NCBI GenBank assembly: GCA_025041195.1
Contig: JAKCFM010000001.1
Span: 2,542,001 to 2,606,000, forward strand
Direction: 5' to 3'
Source of the DNA: Halobacteriales archaeon YIM A00013
GTDB taxonomy: Archaea > Halobacteriota > Halobacteria > Halobacteriales > Haloarculaceae
DNA length: 64,000 nt
How positions within the stretch are numbered: position 1 is the first letter of the stretch; every line of letters begins with the position of its first letter. The translations under genes and the position numbers were made by a program. Below the pieces are notes generated by a model. That model was not told where the DNA came from and did not search any database. It saw only the letters and a program-made list of their open reading frames with translations. Positions 27,653 through 43,900 of the stretch are shown here, one piece after another.

Positions 27653-28176
27653 TCCGTGGTGATGCGCGCCAGCGCGGGATGTTGGTCTTCGAGGCCCGTT
27701 GGACAGCCAAGGCTGCGATAACGCCCGTACGAATCGAGGAGTTCAATCAAGCCATTAGCCGCGCTCGCACAGCCAGGTCGGTCGATTGTTTCGAGTGGTG
27801 ACTGTGGATCCGTTGCGGGGAATGTGAGCTGGTGAATCTCGCCAGTTCTCGTTTCATGGTAGCGGACCTTCGCACCGGTGTCGAAGGTTGCTGCGACGAC
27901 CGTTTCTCCCGTTGCGTGATAGCGCGTGATTCGCTCGATGCCGGGCAGATGTTCGTATGCGGTCCGTTCGCTGGCGAGATCAGCCATTGTGAGGATCTGT
28001 TCAATCCGGGTGGCGTGTGGGCAGCTGGTGGATTGGCAGGGACGACACCACGTCCCCTGACCGATATCTACGACGTGGTAGAGCTCCGCTTCAGAGAGTT
28101 CATCGCGTGAATCCACAGTGGAAAGGTTCACGCAGTTGCGGTCTTCGTCCCTGAACAGAAATAGGGGGAGCGTCAT
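27649..28176 (-). CDS. Conserved-looking protein with Cys-rich motif, function unknown
   Basis: A 175-residue protein starting MTLPLFLFRDEDRN. It has a central CRPCQSTSCPH motif that could bind a metal, followed by a helical segment and a beta-rich C-terminal half. The stop overlaps the end of the P-type ATPase gene by 4 nt, tail to tail. I do not recognise the family. Proximity to a copper pump makes a metal-related role possible but unproven. Confidence 0.65.
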   Translation of the reverse strand: MTLPLFLFRDEDRNCVNLSTVDSRDELSEAELYHVVDIGQGTWCRPCQSTSCPHATRIEQILTMADLASERTAYEHLPGIERITRYHATGETVVAATFDTGAKVRYHETRTGEIHQLTFPATDPQSPLETIDRPGCASAANGLIELLDSYGRYRSLGCPTGLEDQHPALARITTD

Positions 28177-28842
28177 CGTCGCCCCCACAGTGGACAGCAC
28201 AGATGATGATCGCGGTGACTGCGGAGCTGTCTGCGACAGACCACACAGCTGTGGCTGTAGTAGTTTATCGAGCCGGTACAATTACGTACGTCTGTGTTCT
28301 CCCATTGCATGGGTGATCTTCCGTTTGAGAGCCCAGTGTCGGGTGTTCCTACCACCCGGCGCGTTCAAACACGAACGCACAACGCCCCGTGGCGCATCTG
28401 TGCTCTCGTGTTGCAATGCCTTCCCGATTGCATATAAAGTTATTTTGGAATAATTGTGAAAGACTGTTTGAGTGATAGCTGTGTGCGGAGTGGGGGTACA
28501 ATTGCGTTCCGTTCCGAAATTGGTGCTTTTGTAGCCAGGATTGTTTTTGTGTGGTTAGGCGATCCCCCAAACAGGTTTCCCTGGTTAGTATTGATGATAC
28601 GATGAAGTTCTGATCCAAGAAATCCATCCTCGCCACAGTTGACAATATTCTTACTAGAAATTGGGATAACAGATAATACTTGATGCTAGGAGTTTCAAAT
28701 ATCTTATACCATTGAAGTATTGATTTCTATTATAAATTTCCAATAATTAAGATAAATGAATTTTATACTGATAATTTGTAGATATTATAAAACCATACAG
28801 ATCAAAACACTTTAGAAGGAAAGTCACTAGCTTGGTCTAAGA
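28177..28842. other. 666-nt intergenic stretch, AT-rich on the right
   Basis: No convincing gene, RNA or repeat is visible. From about 28660 the DNA becomes very AT-rich, as it stays through the next small ORF, marking the left edge of an accessory patch. It may hold remnants of an insertion sequence, but I could not identify terminal repeats. Confidence 0.5.
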
Positions 28843-29127
28843 ATGAATATAAAATCGATTGTCAAAAAATTGATTTCCATCCCGGGCACAAGATTATTGG
28901 AATTGATGATTTTATTATCCGCATCAATTTATATATTTGAAATATGGCTACAACCAATCCTTGTAGGTATTGATCCAATGTTTGCCTGGGGATCTACCTC
29001 TGGTTCTATGGGCCGACGGCCGACGAGTCCTCAAGGCATCACTATTTTAGTAATAACTATGGTTTTATTTTATATATCTCTACGGATTCAAGAGGTGGTA
29101 TTGGACCACCTAGACATCGAAAATTAG
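28843..29127 (+). CDS. Small two-helix membrane protein
   Basis: A 94-residue ORF in AT-rich DNA. Two hydrophobic segments (about 19-42 and 67-84) flank a short polar loop with GSTSGSMGRRPTSPQG. The N-terminus is basic (MNIKSIVKKL), so both ends would face the cytoplasm. It converges with the repeat-protein gene, 13 nt between stops. I do not recognise it. Its place beside a toxin-like gene makes an immunity role thinkable, but immunity genes usually follow the toxin on the same strand. Confidence 0.5.
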   Translation: MNIKSIVKKLISIPGTRLLELMILLSASIYIFEIWLQPILVGIDPMFAWGSTSGSMGRRPTSPQGITILVITMVLFYISLRIQEVVLDHLDIEN

Positions 29128-29140
29128 GGTAAATATGTTA

Positions 29141-31110
29141 CTATTGGGTTGTACCTGTCGAGTTTCCCCCACTCCCTAGGCCCATCTTCTGCTGCATTTG
29201 ACAAATTGTCGCGTCATTTGCTTTATTAGGATGGCTGTCACACCAATTCCTTATGTCTACATATTTACTGGCTGGTATTGATGCTATGTGTCCACCTCTT
29301 GCAATCCGTAGATTTCTTTTTATTTTTCTTGGCGACCATTCAAGATGTTGCCGAAGCCCAGAGACCCATCGGAGATCGATTCCGTATCTCGCGTAGTATT
29401 CGATATCATTGGCGGGGATTTTCTGATGCCGTAGTTTGCTTGCCCGATCTAGATTCTGATTGTTGTCGACGAGTTTTTCAATTGTTTTTGGAGAAAGATC
29501 CTGCTTTCGGAGACGGATGACTCGATCGGGATCTATTCCCTCATCAACGTACCGTCGGATTTGCTTCGGTGCGATGTTTTGATTCCGTAGGTCAGCAACT
29601 TTGTGTAGATTTGCTCCTTCATCGACATACTTCCGGATATCACTTCCAGGAATTCGCACTTCGCGCAACCGTTCTACTCGTCTCAGATCCACCCCTTCGT
29701 CGAGATAATGACTCACGTCATCCATGCGAATCCCGTGGCCTTTGTGTAACTTTTTGTAGACCCATCCGAAGCTGTATCCACTATCAGTGATCCGCTGGAG
29801 ATCGTTAGCACCGAGCCCCTTGTCCATCATGAGATTGATCTGTCTCGGTGAATATCCCTCATCAATATGTTTGTTTATTTGGTCTGCAGAGATCCCCTTC
29901 TCGCGTAACGTCCTGATTTTTCGCAAATCCAAGCCTTTTCCCTTGTATTTTATGACCTGCTTCGTGGAGAATCCCTTGTTAGTAAGCGTTCCAACAGGTA
30001 CATCTGTGAACTTATTGAGTATCTTGGAGGATATCGAATTCGGAAGGTGTCCCAGAAGGTGCTTGGATAACAGTTTAGCAGCCTGTTTGGCTCCTGATGG
30101 GAACTTCTTCGTCCATTTAGTAATTGTTTTAAATATTTGTCCCGTGTCAGCTACTTTTCCTAATCCTGGAATTGCTGCTATACCGTTGATGATGATTCCT
30201 TCGGCATTTTTGGTATATAAACTATGCACTAGTGCTCTGACATCGGATGCCGTGTCCAAACCGGGAACGAACGAAAGGACCACGTTGCCGAGTATGTAGA
30301 ACGGTGAACTTTCGTATCCATCGGGAACCAGCCATTCTAAGATTCCTCCCTTTCCACCCATGCTGCCAGCGAGTCCACCAGCCAGGAATGCTGAAAATTT
30401 ATCTCCGGTAGAGAGTTCGTCCTTTTGATCGTCGGCCTCTTTTTCCCACTCTGGTCCGGATGTGTTTTCGGCCGTTTCATTGCTTCCGTTCTGTTTATTG
30501 CTGCCATCTGATGTATTAGATGTGTTGTCGGAATCTCTTTCCAGTTGTATTCCATCTTCACCCTGTTCATTTTCGTTCGATCCTTTTTGCGTAGCACCCT
30601 CCAGATCCGCATCCGCATTCACGACGAGTTCGGTTTCGAGCGATTGCTCACCTGAATCCGTCGCATCGATTGCCACGCCGACGTAAATGGTGTCGCCGGG
30701 ACTGAGCTGGACGGCATTTTCTTCGGACTCAAACGGCGTTCCGTCCTGCTGGAACTCGACGACGTCGTTCGTGTTTTCGAGCCAGACTCAACGGGCTGGG
30801 TCCCCTGATTCGTGATGGTGAAGATATCAGAAATCACGGTTTGGCTCCCCTGATTGACGCCGCTGCCGGCCGGGCCGTCTTCGAGTGTCCCGTCGAGTCG
30901 GAGCGCAAGCTCCCCGCCTTTGTCGGTTGCGTACTGTCCGTTCTCGCCGTCGGCTGGCTGCAAGCCGAGATAGCCCGCCGCGTCGCCGACCACGTTGACG
31001 TTTGCGTTTCGTTTGGTCGTGGCCGAGTCGAACGCGCCAGTGGCGTAGATGGCGCTCGTCACCAGCCCAACGGCGATCAGACAGATGGCTATGCGTCGCA
31101 GTTGATTCAT
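29141..31110 (-). pseudogene. DUF1102-helical-repeat fusion protein, interrupted by a frameshift
   Basis: The N-terminal frame (31110 to about 30787) encodes 108 residues: signal segment RRIAICLIAVGLVTSAIYAT, then GAFDSA and a DUF1102-like strand region ending TITNQGTQPVE. One base appears missing near 30785; the other frame then continues in register with WLENTNDVVEF and NAVQLSPGDTIYVGVAIDA and runs to 29141. After an Asn/Ser/Asp-rich linker come a hydrophobic helical segment (VLSFVPGLDTASDVRALV, AAIPGLGKVADTG) like pre-toxin regions, eight 26-residue repeats, and a tail with two Cys. The rejoined product would be about 655 residues. True inactivation, programmed shifting and a sequence error are all possible. 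Confidence 0.75.
29348..29977 (-). repeat. Eight tandem 26-residue protein repeats
   Basis: Residues 234-443, counted from the ATG at 30676, contain eight consecutive units with the pattern I-x4-I-x2-Y-V-D-E-G-x-D-L-x-R-V-x2-L-R; seven are exactly 26 residues and one is 28. Each unit predicts two short helices, giving a solenoid. The DNA copies have diverged, so this is an old array and not recent slippage. Confidence 0.85.
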
Positions 31111-39808: not shown

Positions 39809-40645
39809 ATGAGCGACGACTACGGGCTGATTGACTCGGATGCGAGCGACGTTCCAGGCGACGAATGGGAAGCGATCGATGTCAGCGACACGGAGGCAGA
39901 CCGGATCGCCAGGAGACAGGACCGCGAGTTTCTTTCGTTTCGCAAGCGGATCAAAGACGCCGATCAGTTCAAAGTTGAGGCGTCGGTGTTCGATGACGCC
40001 ACCTTTGCCGCTATTTATAAGCTCGTTCAGGACGGCTACATCGATGCGTTTGGTGGACCGATTTCTACTGGGAAGGAGGCGTCGGTCTACTCGGCGAAAG
40101 GGCCTGACGGAACGGTTGCCGTGAAGATCTATCGGATCAACGCCAGCGATTTCCGCCAGATGCGCCAGTATCTCGATGGTGATCCACGATTCGAGGGTAT
40201 CGGCAGCGACAAGAAGAAGGTGGTGCTCTCCTGGGTGAAAAAGGAGTTCTCGAATCTTGGCCGGGCTCGCGATGCGGGCGTGGCGGTGCCTGAGCCGATC
40301 ACCACTGAGCGCAATGTGCTGGTGATGGAGTATCTCGGCGACGAATCACGTGGCCGGCGACTGGCTGAAGTTGAGATTGAGAACCCCCAGACGGCGTTCG
40401 AGGTCGTTCGGGAGTATATGCAGCGATTGTATCGAGCTGGGATAGTTCACGGGGATTTCAGCGAGTACAACGTGGTCGTCCAGAACGGTGAGCTGTACGT
40501 CATCGATCTTGGCCAGGCCGTGACGGTCCATCATCCCAACAGCCGTGAGTTTTTAGAACGCGACTGTCATAACGTGGCACGATTTTTCAGAGAGCTCGGC
40601 GTGGATGTGACGACTGAATCGCTCCTCGACGACGTTACTACGTAG
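39809..40645 (+). CDS. Rio1-type serine protein kinase
   Basis: A 278-residue atypical kinase needed for late small-subunit ribosome maturation. Motifs: the P-loop STGKEASVY (about 86-94), VAVKIYR with the ATP-binding Lys, the hinge VLVMEYLG, catalytic loop HGDFSEYN (Asp is the base) and metal-binding IDLGQAV. The N-terminal acidic region is natural for haloarchaea. In many archaea a KH-domain gene follows directly; here a foreign pair intervenes. Confidence 0.94.
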   Translation: MSDDYGLIDSDASDVPGDEWEAIDVSDTEADRIARRQDREFLSFRKRIKDADQFKVEASVFDDATFAAIYKLVQDGYIDAFGGPISTGKEASVYSAKGPDGTVAVKIYRINASDFRQMRQYLDGDPRFEGIGSDKKKVVLSWVKKEFSNLGRARDAGVAVPEPITTERNVLVMEYLGDESRGRRLAEVEIENPQTAFEVVREYMQRLYRAGIVHGDFSEYNVVVQNGELYVIDLGQAVTVHHPNSREFLERDCHNVARFFRELGVDVTTESLLDDVTT

Positions 40646-40678
40646 GTATTGAGTGGCAAAAATTGATGAGGGATAATG

Positions 40679-40686
40679 ATATAACA
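40679..40686 (+). promoter_or_regulatory. TATA box for the protease gene
   Basis: AT-rich ataacata is centred about 27 nt before the ATG at 40710, so the inserted protease gene seems to carry its own promoter rather than relying on the aIF1A-Rio1 promoter. Confidence 0.45.
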
Positions 40687-40709
40687 TAACGGGAATAAAT
40701 ATCCACTAC

Positions 40710-41867
40710 ATGGAATTATCAAATGAGGGTCGTGAAATTGGTGAAACAAGTGTCTCACGTCGCACATTCCTTACATCGATCCCTGTAACGGTGGGATTTT
40801 CGGCAGCTAGTGTCCATGCAGCATCATCGGCAAACAACCAATCGGCAGAAATTGTCACATTACGAAAGGCAGATGGCTCGCCCGAAAAAATAGAAACGGT
40901 ACCACAAAAGTGGATCAATCACGAACAGAAAGCAAGAAGTGTGGCTAATTCGCTGAAATCCCGTTTTATGCGGAAAAAGAACGTGGAGAGTGTTGGCATT
41001 GGCCCATCCAACACCACTATAGGAGGAAAACCTGGGAGTATTGTCGAAGTAAATTATAAGGCTGGAAAATCAGATAAAACTGTTTCACCACGTATGAAAC
41101 AGGAAATACCCTCCGCTATTGATGGGATTCCCATCCGGATAGGAAAAATTAGGGATAAAAATAAGACAAACTGCGTACATACAGGCGATTATTCTACTGT
41201 ATGGGGTGGTGATTCTATTAAGAGCAGCAATGGAACTACAGGAACTGCCGGATATTTTGTCATAAAAAATGGCAATAGATGGCTTCTAACGGCTAATCAT
41301 GTCTTTGGAGGGTTTTGCAACGACCCTGACGGAATGTATGCGTATCAAGGAGGTAGATATATGGGAAAGGTATTAGGACATCATCGTGATCACGATTGGG
41401 TAGTGATTGAAGATCAATCTTCCAAAACATTCTCTCCAAATGCTAATATTTGGATGAATAATGGTGGTGTTCCTGTAAAATCCTGGGTGACGGAATCAGG
41501 ATTAGCACAATTCAAAAGCAATAATATTTCCGTCTATCAACAAGGTGCCTCCACGGGTCTTACAATAGGTACGATAAGAAATTATGGTACTGCACGTGAT
41601 TACGAATGTTCCGCATGGAACAACGGTGTTGAGATAACTACCAATATCGCACCTGGTGATTCCGGGGGACCAATGTTTATGACATATAATAATAGAAATA
41701 GTATTGGGTTGATAGGTCTTAATTCGATCTCTGTCGACAGGTGGCCGAATGACAATCTTGGACAAGACTGCGATGGAGAAAATATTGAACCCAATTCGTT
41801 CGGCCATCCTACATGGCGATTCGTTCAAAAAGACTTCGGCGGTCAATATACGATAGCTACTGGATAA
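40710..41867 (+). CDS. Tat-exported chymotrypsin-like serine protease
   Basis: A 385-residue S1-fold protease. The Tat signal is VSRRTFLTSIPVTVGFSAA (about 15-34) with cleavage near VHAASSA. A pro-region of about 110 residues precedes the catalytic domain. The triad is visible: His in LLTANHVFGG, Asp in HRDHDWVVIED, and Ser in APGDSGGPMF; a Gly-rich strand after it (LIGLNSIS) forms the pocket. Its coding DNA is markedly AT-rich and Lys/Asn/Ile-rich compared with neighbours, indicating transfer. It is likely secreted folded through the Tat pathway. The substrate is unknown. Confidence 0.88.
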   Translation: MELSNEGREIGETSVSRRTFLTSIPVTVGFSAASVHAASSANNQSAEIVTLRKADGSPEKIETVPQKWINHEQKARSVANSLKSRFMRKKNVESVGIGPSNTTIGGKPGSIVEVNYKAGKSDKTVSPRMKQEIPSAIDGIPIRIGKIRDKNKTNCVHTGDYSTVWGGDSIKSSNGTTGTAGYFVIKNGNRWLLTANHVFGGFCNDPDGMYAYQGGRYMGKVLGHHRDHDWVVIEDQSSKTFSPNANIWMNNGGVPVKSWVTESGLAQFKSNNISVYQQGASTGLTIGTIRNYGTARDYECSAWNNGVEITTNIAPGDSGGPMFMTYNNRNSIGLIGLNSISVDRWPNDNLGQDCDGENIEPNSFGHPTWRFVQKDFGGQYTIATG

Positions 41868-41893
41868 CGCCCCCATACATTGCCAAATAAACT

Positions 41894-42211
41894 ATGAATT
41901 TGTTAAAAAAATCACGAGATTTCATTATCGTCGGATCTATATTACTTTTTGAACTGTCTATCATCTATTACAGTTTCCAATCCACAGGAGCTGGATCGCT
42001 CGTAGAATGCCCTCCAGAACACACCCACTGGAATTTATTAGAGTTTCGTCTGCCAATAATAAAATATATCGGCGTTAATTGGAAGCGAGCTCAAATCATT
42101 TTTTCTAATACCTGCAATTTCTACACGGTGTCTTTCTTCGCTATCGTATTAGCAATCGTGATGCTGTCCGTTACGATATATGCATATTACAACCAACGGG
42201 ATGGGAGCTAG
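41894..42211 (+). CDS. Small membrane protein paired with the protease
   Basis: A 105-residue AT-rich ORF 26 nt after the protease. Two hydrophobic helices (about 10-29 and 76-97) enclose an external loop of about 45 residues with two cysteines (VECPPEHTHW and FSNTCNF) that could form a disulfide. It shares base composition with the protease and probably arrived with it, perhaps as a membrane partner or self-protection factor; that is inference. I do not recognise the family. Confidence 0.68.
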   Translation: MNLLKKSRDFIIVGSILLFELSIIYYSFQSTGAGSLVECPPEHTHWNLLEFRLPIIKYIGVNWKRAQIIFSNTCNFYTVSFFAIVLAIVMLSVTIYAYYNQRDGS

Positions 42212-42284
42212 CAGGAATAGGTATCGAATAGATAGATTGCCATTCCACCGAATGGTTAATGCGTGATCCGCCATTACACCAATT

Positions 42285-42833
42285 ATGCAGCACGTGACGA
42301 TACCGCAGGACCGCATCGGCGTGCTCGTCGGTCAGGGCGGTGAAACGATGCGGGAGATCGAGTCGAAAGCAGAAGTTCGTCTCGACATCGATTCTGAAAC
42401 CGGATCGGTTGCCGTCGAATCGGTCGGTGATCCCGTGCAGGGACTCAAAGGTCCCGACATCGTCAAAGCAATCGGGAGAGGCTTCCGACCGGAGGACGCA
42501 CTGCGGTTGCTCGAAAACGACCTGATGATGTTTGAGATCGTCGACATCGACGCTGTGGCGCGCAACAAGAACGATCTCCGGCGAAAAAAGGGTCGTCTCA
42601 TCGGTGAGGATGGCCGGACGCGAGAGCTGATGGAAGAGCTCACCGGTGCGTCAGTCGTGATTTACGGCACGACGCTGGGCATCATCGGCCGCCCCGAGGA
42701 AGTCGAGGCCGTCCGTCGTGCAGCCGAGATGATCCTGGATGGGGCCCCGCACGGCTCGGTGTACTCGTTCCTTGAACGCCGCCGGACCGAAATGAAACAG
42801 AACGAACTGAGCTACCACGAGTTTCCTGGGTGA
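42285..42833 (+). CDS. KH-domain RNA-binding protein (Pno1/Dim2-like)
   Basis: A 182-residue protein with two KH domains. KH1 shows IPQDRIGVLVGQGGETMREI (GxxG loop as GQGG); KH2 shows GRLIGEDGRTRELMEEL (GEDG) with YGTTLGIIGRPEEV after it. This is the archaeal Pno1/Dim2-like protein of 16S rRNA/30S maturation that usually follows rio1. Here gttaatg about 30 nt upstream may be a private promoter, which would let it survive separation from the cluster. Confidence 0.9.
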   Translation: MQHVTIPQDRIGVLVGQGGETMREIESKAEVRLDIDSETGSVAVESVGDPVQGLKGPDIVKAIGRGFRPEDALRLLENDLMMFEIVDIDAVARNKNDLRRKKGRLIGEDGRTRELMEELTGASVVIYGTTLGIIGRPEEVEAVRRAAEMILDGAPHGSVYSFLERRRTEMKQNELSYHEFPG

Positions 42834-43093: not shown

Positions 43094-43384
43094 ATGGGGA
43101 CGATTTCAGCCCGACTCCCTGAGGATATCGAAAATGAACTCGAACTGTATTTAGTAGAAGAAAATCTGGAACGAAGCACTGCCGTACGGAAGCTCTTAAC
43201 CGAGGGACTTGCATCCTGGCGCGAGAACCGTGCACTTACTATGCTTCGTGAAGGTGACGTAACCATTTCACGGGGGGCAGAGATAGCAGATTGTTCTGTG
43301 TGGGAATTTGCACGGTTAGCCGAGTCCCGTGATATCACCTGGATCTCTGAAGACCATCTTGAAGACGATCTGGATGACCTATAG
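43094..43384 (+). CDS. UPF0175-family antitoxin
   Basis: A 96-residue protein. The N-terminal ribbon-helix-helix-like part reads TISARLPEDIENELELYL; the rest (AVRKLLTEGLASWRE, ISRGAEIADCSVWEFARL) is the UPF0175 helical region resembling an HTH. UPF0175 proteins pair with DUF3368 PIN nucleases and are expected both to bind the operator and to neutralise the toxin. The toxin ATG follows the stop directly with no gap. Confidence 0.88.
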   Translation: MGTISARLPEDIENELELYLVEENLERSTAVRKLLTEGLASWRENRALTMLREGDVTISRGAEIADCSVWEFARLAESRDITWISEDHLEDDLDDL

Positions 43385-43900
43385 ATGTGGATTTTCGATG
43401 CGACTCCAGTAATCTATCTTGCGAAATTACAACAGTTCGATATTATCGAGAGCCGGTCTCGTCGCTGTGGTATTCCCGAACCCGTCAAGAATGAGGTGGT
43501 CACAGACGGCATTGCGGCGGGCTATCCTGATGCAAGAGTAATCGAGCGCAGAATCACTGACGGAACTATTTCAGTTGTTTCGGTCCCCGAAACCGATGCC
43601 CACTCCCGTTTGTTGGAGTATCCAGGACTCAGCTGTGCAGATGCCGCGGTACTGGCGTGTGCCGAGGCGTTCGATGGGGTGGCCGTGATGGACGAGTCGG
43701 CTGGTCGCTCAGTTGCGACTGTGGAGTCAATCCCAACACGAGGTACGGCGTATCTCGTTCTGGATGCCGTAAAACGTGGTGACATATCCAAAAAAACGGC
43801 GAGAACCACGATCGATACGATGATTGAAGCAGGGTGGTACTGCGCCCCTGATATGTACGCGAAAATTTGCCAGAAGCTCGAATCGTCCGAATTCCCGTGA
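43385..43900 (+). CDS. DUF3368 PIN-domain toxin
   Basis: A 171-residue PIN nuclease. The first acidic residue is in MWIFDATPVIYLAKL, a second Glu/Asp set is around PVKNEVVTDG, and the third is in LSCADAAVLACAE, with VAVMDESAGR as the last acidic site. The conserved C-terminal GTAYLVLDAVKRG typifies DUF3368. PIN toxins cut tRNA or rRNA and arrest growth. All acidic ligands appear present, so the toxin is probably active and held by the upstream antitoxin. Confidence 0.88.
   Translation: MWIFDATPVIYLAKLQQFDIIESRSRRCGIPEPVKNEVVTDGIAAGYPDARVIERRITDGTISVVSVPETDAHSRLLEYPGLSCADAAVLACAEAFDGVAVMDESAGRSVATVESIPTRGTAYLVLDAVKRGDISKKTARTTIDTMIEAGWYCAPDMYAKICQKLESSEFP

Follow-up and report, generated by a model that had tools for sequence, protein, structure and literature searches.

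The interval between two ribosome-maturation genes, rio1 and the downstream KH-domain gene, in the window (the whole 64,000-nucleotide stretch of DNA analysed here) is filled by AT-rich DNA that encodes a predicted secreted serine protease and a small membrane protein, and the gain of this DNA by horizontal transfer is well supported. The explanation that we tentatively favour, without regarding it as probable, is that the transferred protease is accompanied by a co-transcribed membrane partner which docks or restrains it at the cell surface. The features of the locus are as follows.

39809–40645, plus strand: rio1, left flank (Pfam RIO1, 2e-57)
40646–42284, plus strand: AT-rich segment, rio1-KH interval (GC 41.1% versus 57.0%; 68-bp spacer in the nearest relative)
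40710–41867, plus strand: serine protease of alpha-lytic/streptogrisin fold, 385 aa, with Tat signal, NAL1-like N-terminal domain and triad H197/D229/S318 (Pfam, family alignment, AF2, Foldseek)
40755–40772, plus strand: Tat motif S-R-R-T-F-L, signal peptide residues 16–21 (sequence; Arg conservation in homologues)
41894–42211, plus strand: membrane protein of 105 aa with two predicted helices, the loop between which holds Cys39 and Cys74 (profile search, alignment, AF2)
42244–42284, plus strand: conserved putative KH promoter/5′ region, beginning TCCACCGAATGGTTAATGCG, right edge of the insert (41 bp identical to A. halophilum)
42285–42833, plus strand: KH-domain (Pno1/Dim2-like) gene, right flank (Pfam KH_1, KRR1/PNO1 KH domains)

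From the rio1 stop codon to the KH start codon the interval measures 1639 bp at 41.1% GC, which bears out the description given in the sequence-only reading of about 1.6 kb of AT-rich DNA separating the two genes. Genome windows of the same size, of which 1068 were taken from 20 sampled genome regions (a 400-kb sample) and from the window itself, have a GC content of 57.0 ± 3.6%, placing the insert at about −4.4 standard deviations, and 0.2% of them are equally low. The GC3 values of the protease and membrane genes are 0.33 and 0.43, respectively, as against 0.69–0.71 for rio1 and KH. The two genes lie on the same strand with a gap of 26 bp, an arrangement that fits one operon. A second AT-rich island, with GC as low as 34%, was observed at 28000–30700, containing a 511-aa minus-strand ORF (29141–30676) of no clear family and an adjoining 94-aa ORF with hydrophobic stretches.

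The host, a salt-loving archaeon, belongs to the Halocatena/Actinarchaeum group, and its close kin Actinarchaeum halophilum forms hyphae and spores (PMC10067837). In the closest genome compared, that of A. halophilum YIM 93972 (G001), Rio1 and KH are 95% and 98% identical to their window counterparts, respectively, and the rio1-KH spacer is only 68 bp. The corresponding spacers of five further genomes (G002–G006) measure 219–349 bp, and tblastn revealed no trace of either the protease or the membrane gene in them; G002 and G006, which have in common a contig of equal length and gave identical match coordinates, do not count as independent genomes. The 41 bp preceding the KH start codon are 100% identical between the window and G001, and a core of this upstream sequence, CCACCGAATGGTTAA, is kept in the compared congeneric loci with the exception of that of H. 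marina. The conserved stretch looks like the KH promoter, and its conservation indicates that the insert ends at the 5′ edge of that putative promoter, so that the cassette proper would have its 3′ limit at about position 42243; the left edge lies at the rio1 stop codon or just past it.

The simplest history, which these sequence comparisons support well, would be a single gain in the window lineage after its split from A. halophilum YIM 93972. Horizontal gain, proposed earlier from composition and position, is supported by the empty site in the sister genome, the absence of both genes at this site in all congeners, the odd composition of the insert and the placement of the protease off the branch of the resident paralogue. 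Comparison of the related genomes established that the insertion is not common to all relatives, since no other congener carries either gene at this site; loss from A. halophilum is for the same reason disfavoured. The locus provides a clean case of recent gain, in which the empty site can be seen in a relative, and it does so in a genus noted for hypha and spore formation among archaea.

Several routes of entry and possible donors were considered. Entry by a mobile element was rejected, as there are no convincing flanking repeats, no adjacent tRNA and no recombinase ORF inside the insert, while a viral origin was set aside because viral contigs and phage records held no relatives. The proteases of eight haloarchaeal plasmids are just 25–30% identical to that of the window and there was no DNA match, which does not point to a plasmid donor. 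A pattern scan of 84,980 species yielded no close donor genome, and outside the haloarchaea only very weak matches, in other members of the phylum, were obtained. Local duplication of the resident protease is ruled out by the tree, in which the window protease and the resident genus paralogue fall into different supported clades (split support 97).

The sequence-only reading had taken rio1 and the KH gene to be usually adjacent, an expectation that is not dependable in haloarchaea. Among 30 haloarchaeal loci, about eight have the two genes within 350 bp of one another, four have them 571–716 bp apart and eight 1.5–5.5 kb apart, while at the remaining ten KH loci (two of them at contig edges) no rio1 is in reach. 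Since rio1 and KH are often apart, the insertion site is better viewed as a permissive spacer than as a broken operon: the insert does lie between rio1 and KH, as had been noted, but this position carries little functional weight as the cluster is not fixed and the KH promoter appears intact. Directly downstream of KH, at 43094–43900, are genes for a UPF0175-like antitoxin and a DUF3368/PIN-type toxin; of the latter, G001 retains a C-terminal remnant alone (43% over residues 124–171), which indicates that the surroundings of KH are variable on both sides.

The identification of the first inserted gene product as a chymotrypsin-like protease proved right, its export being a prediction. Pfam matches above the cut-offs were obtained to Trypsin_2 (E=3e-7) and Trypsin (E=4e-5). 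In an alignment of 58 homologues, nearly every sequence retains the triad His197/Asp229/Ser318, which comes in the order H-D-S and with GDSGG around the serine. The motif SRRTFL followed by a hydrophobic stretch and VHA, the putative cleavage site, constitutes a predicted Tat signal, the Arg pair of which is conserved in 93–95% of homologues. An AF2 model based on 58 sequences (pLDDT 85, pTM 0.84) has the two-barrel chymotrypsin fold, preceded by an N-terminal domain of about residues 45–145. Foldseek matched the catalytic domain to alpha-lytic protease (TM 0.83, target-normalised) and almost the full length of the protein, with the N-terminal domain, to rice NAL1 (best 8pmg and 8pme, TM ~0.5). 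The family profile, when compared to the PDB, matched glutamyl endopeptidase (1hpg) and streptogrisin B (E 2e-5 to 6e-5), and the single sequence found no match among solved structures.

The protease family is patchy, being present in 71 of 392 genomes and in 37 of the 95 genera of the order, with at most four candidates scored per genome, and it also occurs in eight plasmid records. The nearest relatives of the window protease are 30–37% identical to it. All seven genus genomes carry a resident S1 protease with a Tat signal (L018 at G000:C1:244127; orthologues L007, L009, L014, L016, L019 and L020). The window protease has the highest pI of 74 homologues (9.0; median 4.9), with values of 6.2–8.6 in those resident paralogues that were measured, and such a high pI would favour binding of the protease to the acidic archaeal surface.

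The second gene product was likewise correctly described as a small disulfide-capable membrane protein, the disulfide itself being putative. Its AF2 model consists of a helix (residues 2–29), a beta loop containing Cys39 and Cys74, and a second helix (residues 81–104), and the positive N-terminus suggests that the loop faces outward. A fold search returned no significant match. Single-sequence matches to congeneric proteins, with E-values down to 2.5e-9, are the basis of its kinship, and a profile built from these found the family in 16 of 392 genomes; the score of the window protein against this profile is partly circular, as that protein is included in it. Across 17 aligned members both cysteines (Cys39, Cys74) and the Asn75 following the second are invariant, and most members have the motif WYDGCN ahead of the second helix. 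The window protein has FSNTCN at this position, and most of the motif is thus lost. It is a diverged representative of a haloarchaeal family of small disulfide-loop membrane proteins which has no name and is uncatalogued, having no entry in Pfam, NCBIfam or PHROGs.

The notion that the two genes form a pair fared less well. Both families occur in six genomes, five of which belong to the genus, and, with at most four protease candidates scored per genome, they are adjacent in the window only. No protease of the same family as that of the window stands beside any copy of the membrane family in the 15 other genomes that contain it. When the remaining membrane-family loci were all scanned with a profile, none had a protease closer than about 1.5 kb. 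By homology, therefore, the membrane gene does not accompany the protease elsewhere, which speaks against a pair; this is softened by the frequent presence of an unrelated small envelope gene downstream of the family's proteases. A lipoprotein or membrane gene of at most 300 aa lies directly downstream at 14 of 57 non-redundant protease loci as opposed to 5 of the 104 genes that served as controls (Fisher test, p ~5e-4), in an exploratory count that used a simple ORF rule, included the window among the 14 and had its 300-aa limit set after the data were seen. Without the size limit the proportions are 15/57 and 16/104 (p=0.10), which is not significant.

None of the downstream partners of other proteases is homologous to the window membrane protein. 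Partners akin to one another across genera were observed (L117, L120 and L123; L083, L100, L084 and L119); these carry a Tat motif or lipobox directly downstream of family proteases in several genera, and it is possible that they are surface-anchored inhibitors or substrates. One partner gave a weak match, below the cut-off, to a bacterial Ig-like domain. At L146 (G267:C1:277667–284650) tandem two-helix Cys-loop proteins were seen, with two copies around the protease and LTLDFY..C before helix 2, and L235 (G470) has tandem small two-helix Cys-loop proteins with no protease nearby. The motif of these look-alikes is suggestive only, and they were not accepted as kin of the window membrane family, the best of them, L146, reaching hhalign P=0.024 with a probability of 2%.

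In the explanation that we favour, a cassette of two genes would have arrived by horizontal transfer in the spacer, permissive of insertion, that runs from the stop codon of rio1 to the promoter of KH, and the membrane gene would be co-transcribed with the protease. The protease would fold in the cytoplasm, presumably kept latent by its N-terminal domain, and leave, still folded, through the Tat pore, to become active outside the cell, where it may cut proteins. The loop of the membrane protein, closed by a Cys39-Cys74 disulfide, would be directed outward, and the protein might dock the protease, which is basic, at the surface of the cell or restrain it there. Against such a joint role, the families are not co-located elsewhere, the partners of other proteases are not homologous to the membrane protein and its WYDGCN motif is largely lost, and the pair as a functional module is unproven.

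Almost as likely is the possibility that the two genes are independent passengers, the protease having been transferred and the membrane gene having come along or relocated within the genus, with no joint function. The lack of co-location outside the window fits such a history, as do the membrane-family relatives that stand alone, for example adjoining trm5 in three congeners (L028–L031, L184–L186). G000 and G001 have a membrane-family copy on the second replicon (L032, L067) and none was found on their trm5 chromosome arm. In the tree, the very long branch of the window membrane protein attaches to the Halocatena clade from the trm5 locus, which is again in keeping with independent passengers, while the shared strand, the 26-bp spacing, the common AT-rich composition and the tendency of the family towards a small downstream envelope gene speak for a partnership.

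A broader version of the docking explanation, which we consider rather unlikely, holds that the exported S1 proteases of haloarchaea are a mobile family with exchangeable envelope partners (a Tat lipoprotein or a small Cys-loop membrane protein) that dock or inhibit them, the window representing a partner newly captured through swapping across the family. If the trend towards envelope partners is real, it offers a route into the control of surface proteases in haloarchaea.

Two further proposals appear very improbable. One, put forward in the sequence-only reading, is that the protease attacks neighbouring strains while the membrane protein shields the producer. A haloarchaeal extracellular serine protease, halolysin HlyR4, can create antagonism by cleaving a precursor (PMC12893001), and the patchy, apparently horizontally moved protease would suit such a role. 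Neither a toxin domain nor an adhesin is seen, and the membrane family exists without proteases and does not recur beside the protease outside the window, unlike a dedicated immunity gene. HlyR4, moreover, is a subtilase and so of another family, and if the N-terminal domain acts as a latency pro-domain, as presumed here, the producer would need no guard of its own. The proposal is unsupported.

The other, which we hold to be just as doubtful, is that the protease matures the strain's own surface proteins or hyphae, as in Streptomyces development, in which secreted proteases and inhibitors take part (PMC12466573). In its favour, the genus holds hypha- and spore-forming haloarchaea in which many gained genes encode secreted or membrane proteins (PMC10067837), and the second family protease with an export signal, likewise basic or near neutral, is present throughout the genus; however, the window copy is absent from A. 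halophilum, the best-studied hypha former, and so cannot be required for hyphae, and proteases of the family are found across many other haloarchaeal genera.

Among known systems, the alpha-lytic/streptogrisin-type proteases are alike in catalytic fold (TM 0.83), H-D-S triad order, GDSGG and profile matches, whereas the window protease is ~17–20% identical to them, haloarchaeal, and has a Tat signal and another N-terminal domain. That subfamily possesses a removable pro-region which catalyses folding, and the N-terminal domain of the window protease may or may not play such a part. Rice NAL1 (NARROW LEAF 1), a plant intracellular protein, is matched in structure over nearly the whole length including the N-terminal domain, although with a TM of about 0.5 overall and 15–18% identity, and the window protease differs from it in having an export signal; this marks out a second uncatalogued family, of patchy haloarchaeal exported proteases with plant-NAL1-like architecture. 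Halolysin HlyR4 does not have the chymotrypsin fold. The protease-precursor antagonism of Haloferax mediterranei in which it acts (PMC12893001) resembles the present case in involving a haloarchaeal serine protease with export (predicted for the window protein), and differs in that the protease there cleaves its partner, a precursor that is secreted, whereas here the partner would be a membrane protein. A further comparison is the resident Halocatena/Actinarchaeum S1 protease, which shares family, Tat signal, high pI and intact triad with the window protease, but which belongs to another clade, is inherited vertically in the genus and has no small Cys-loop partner seen downstream.
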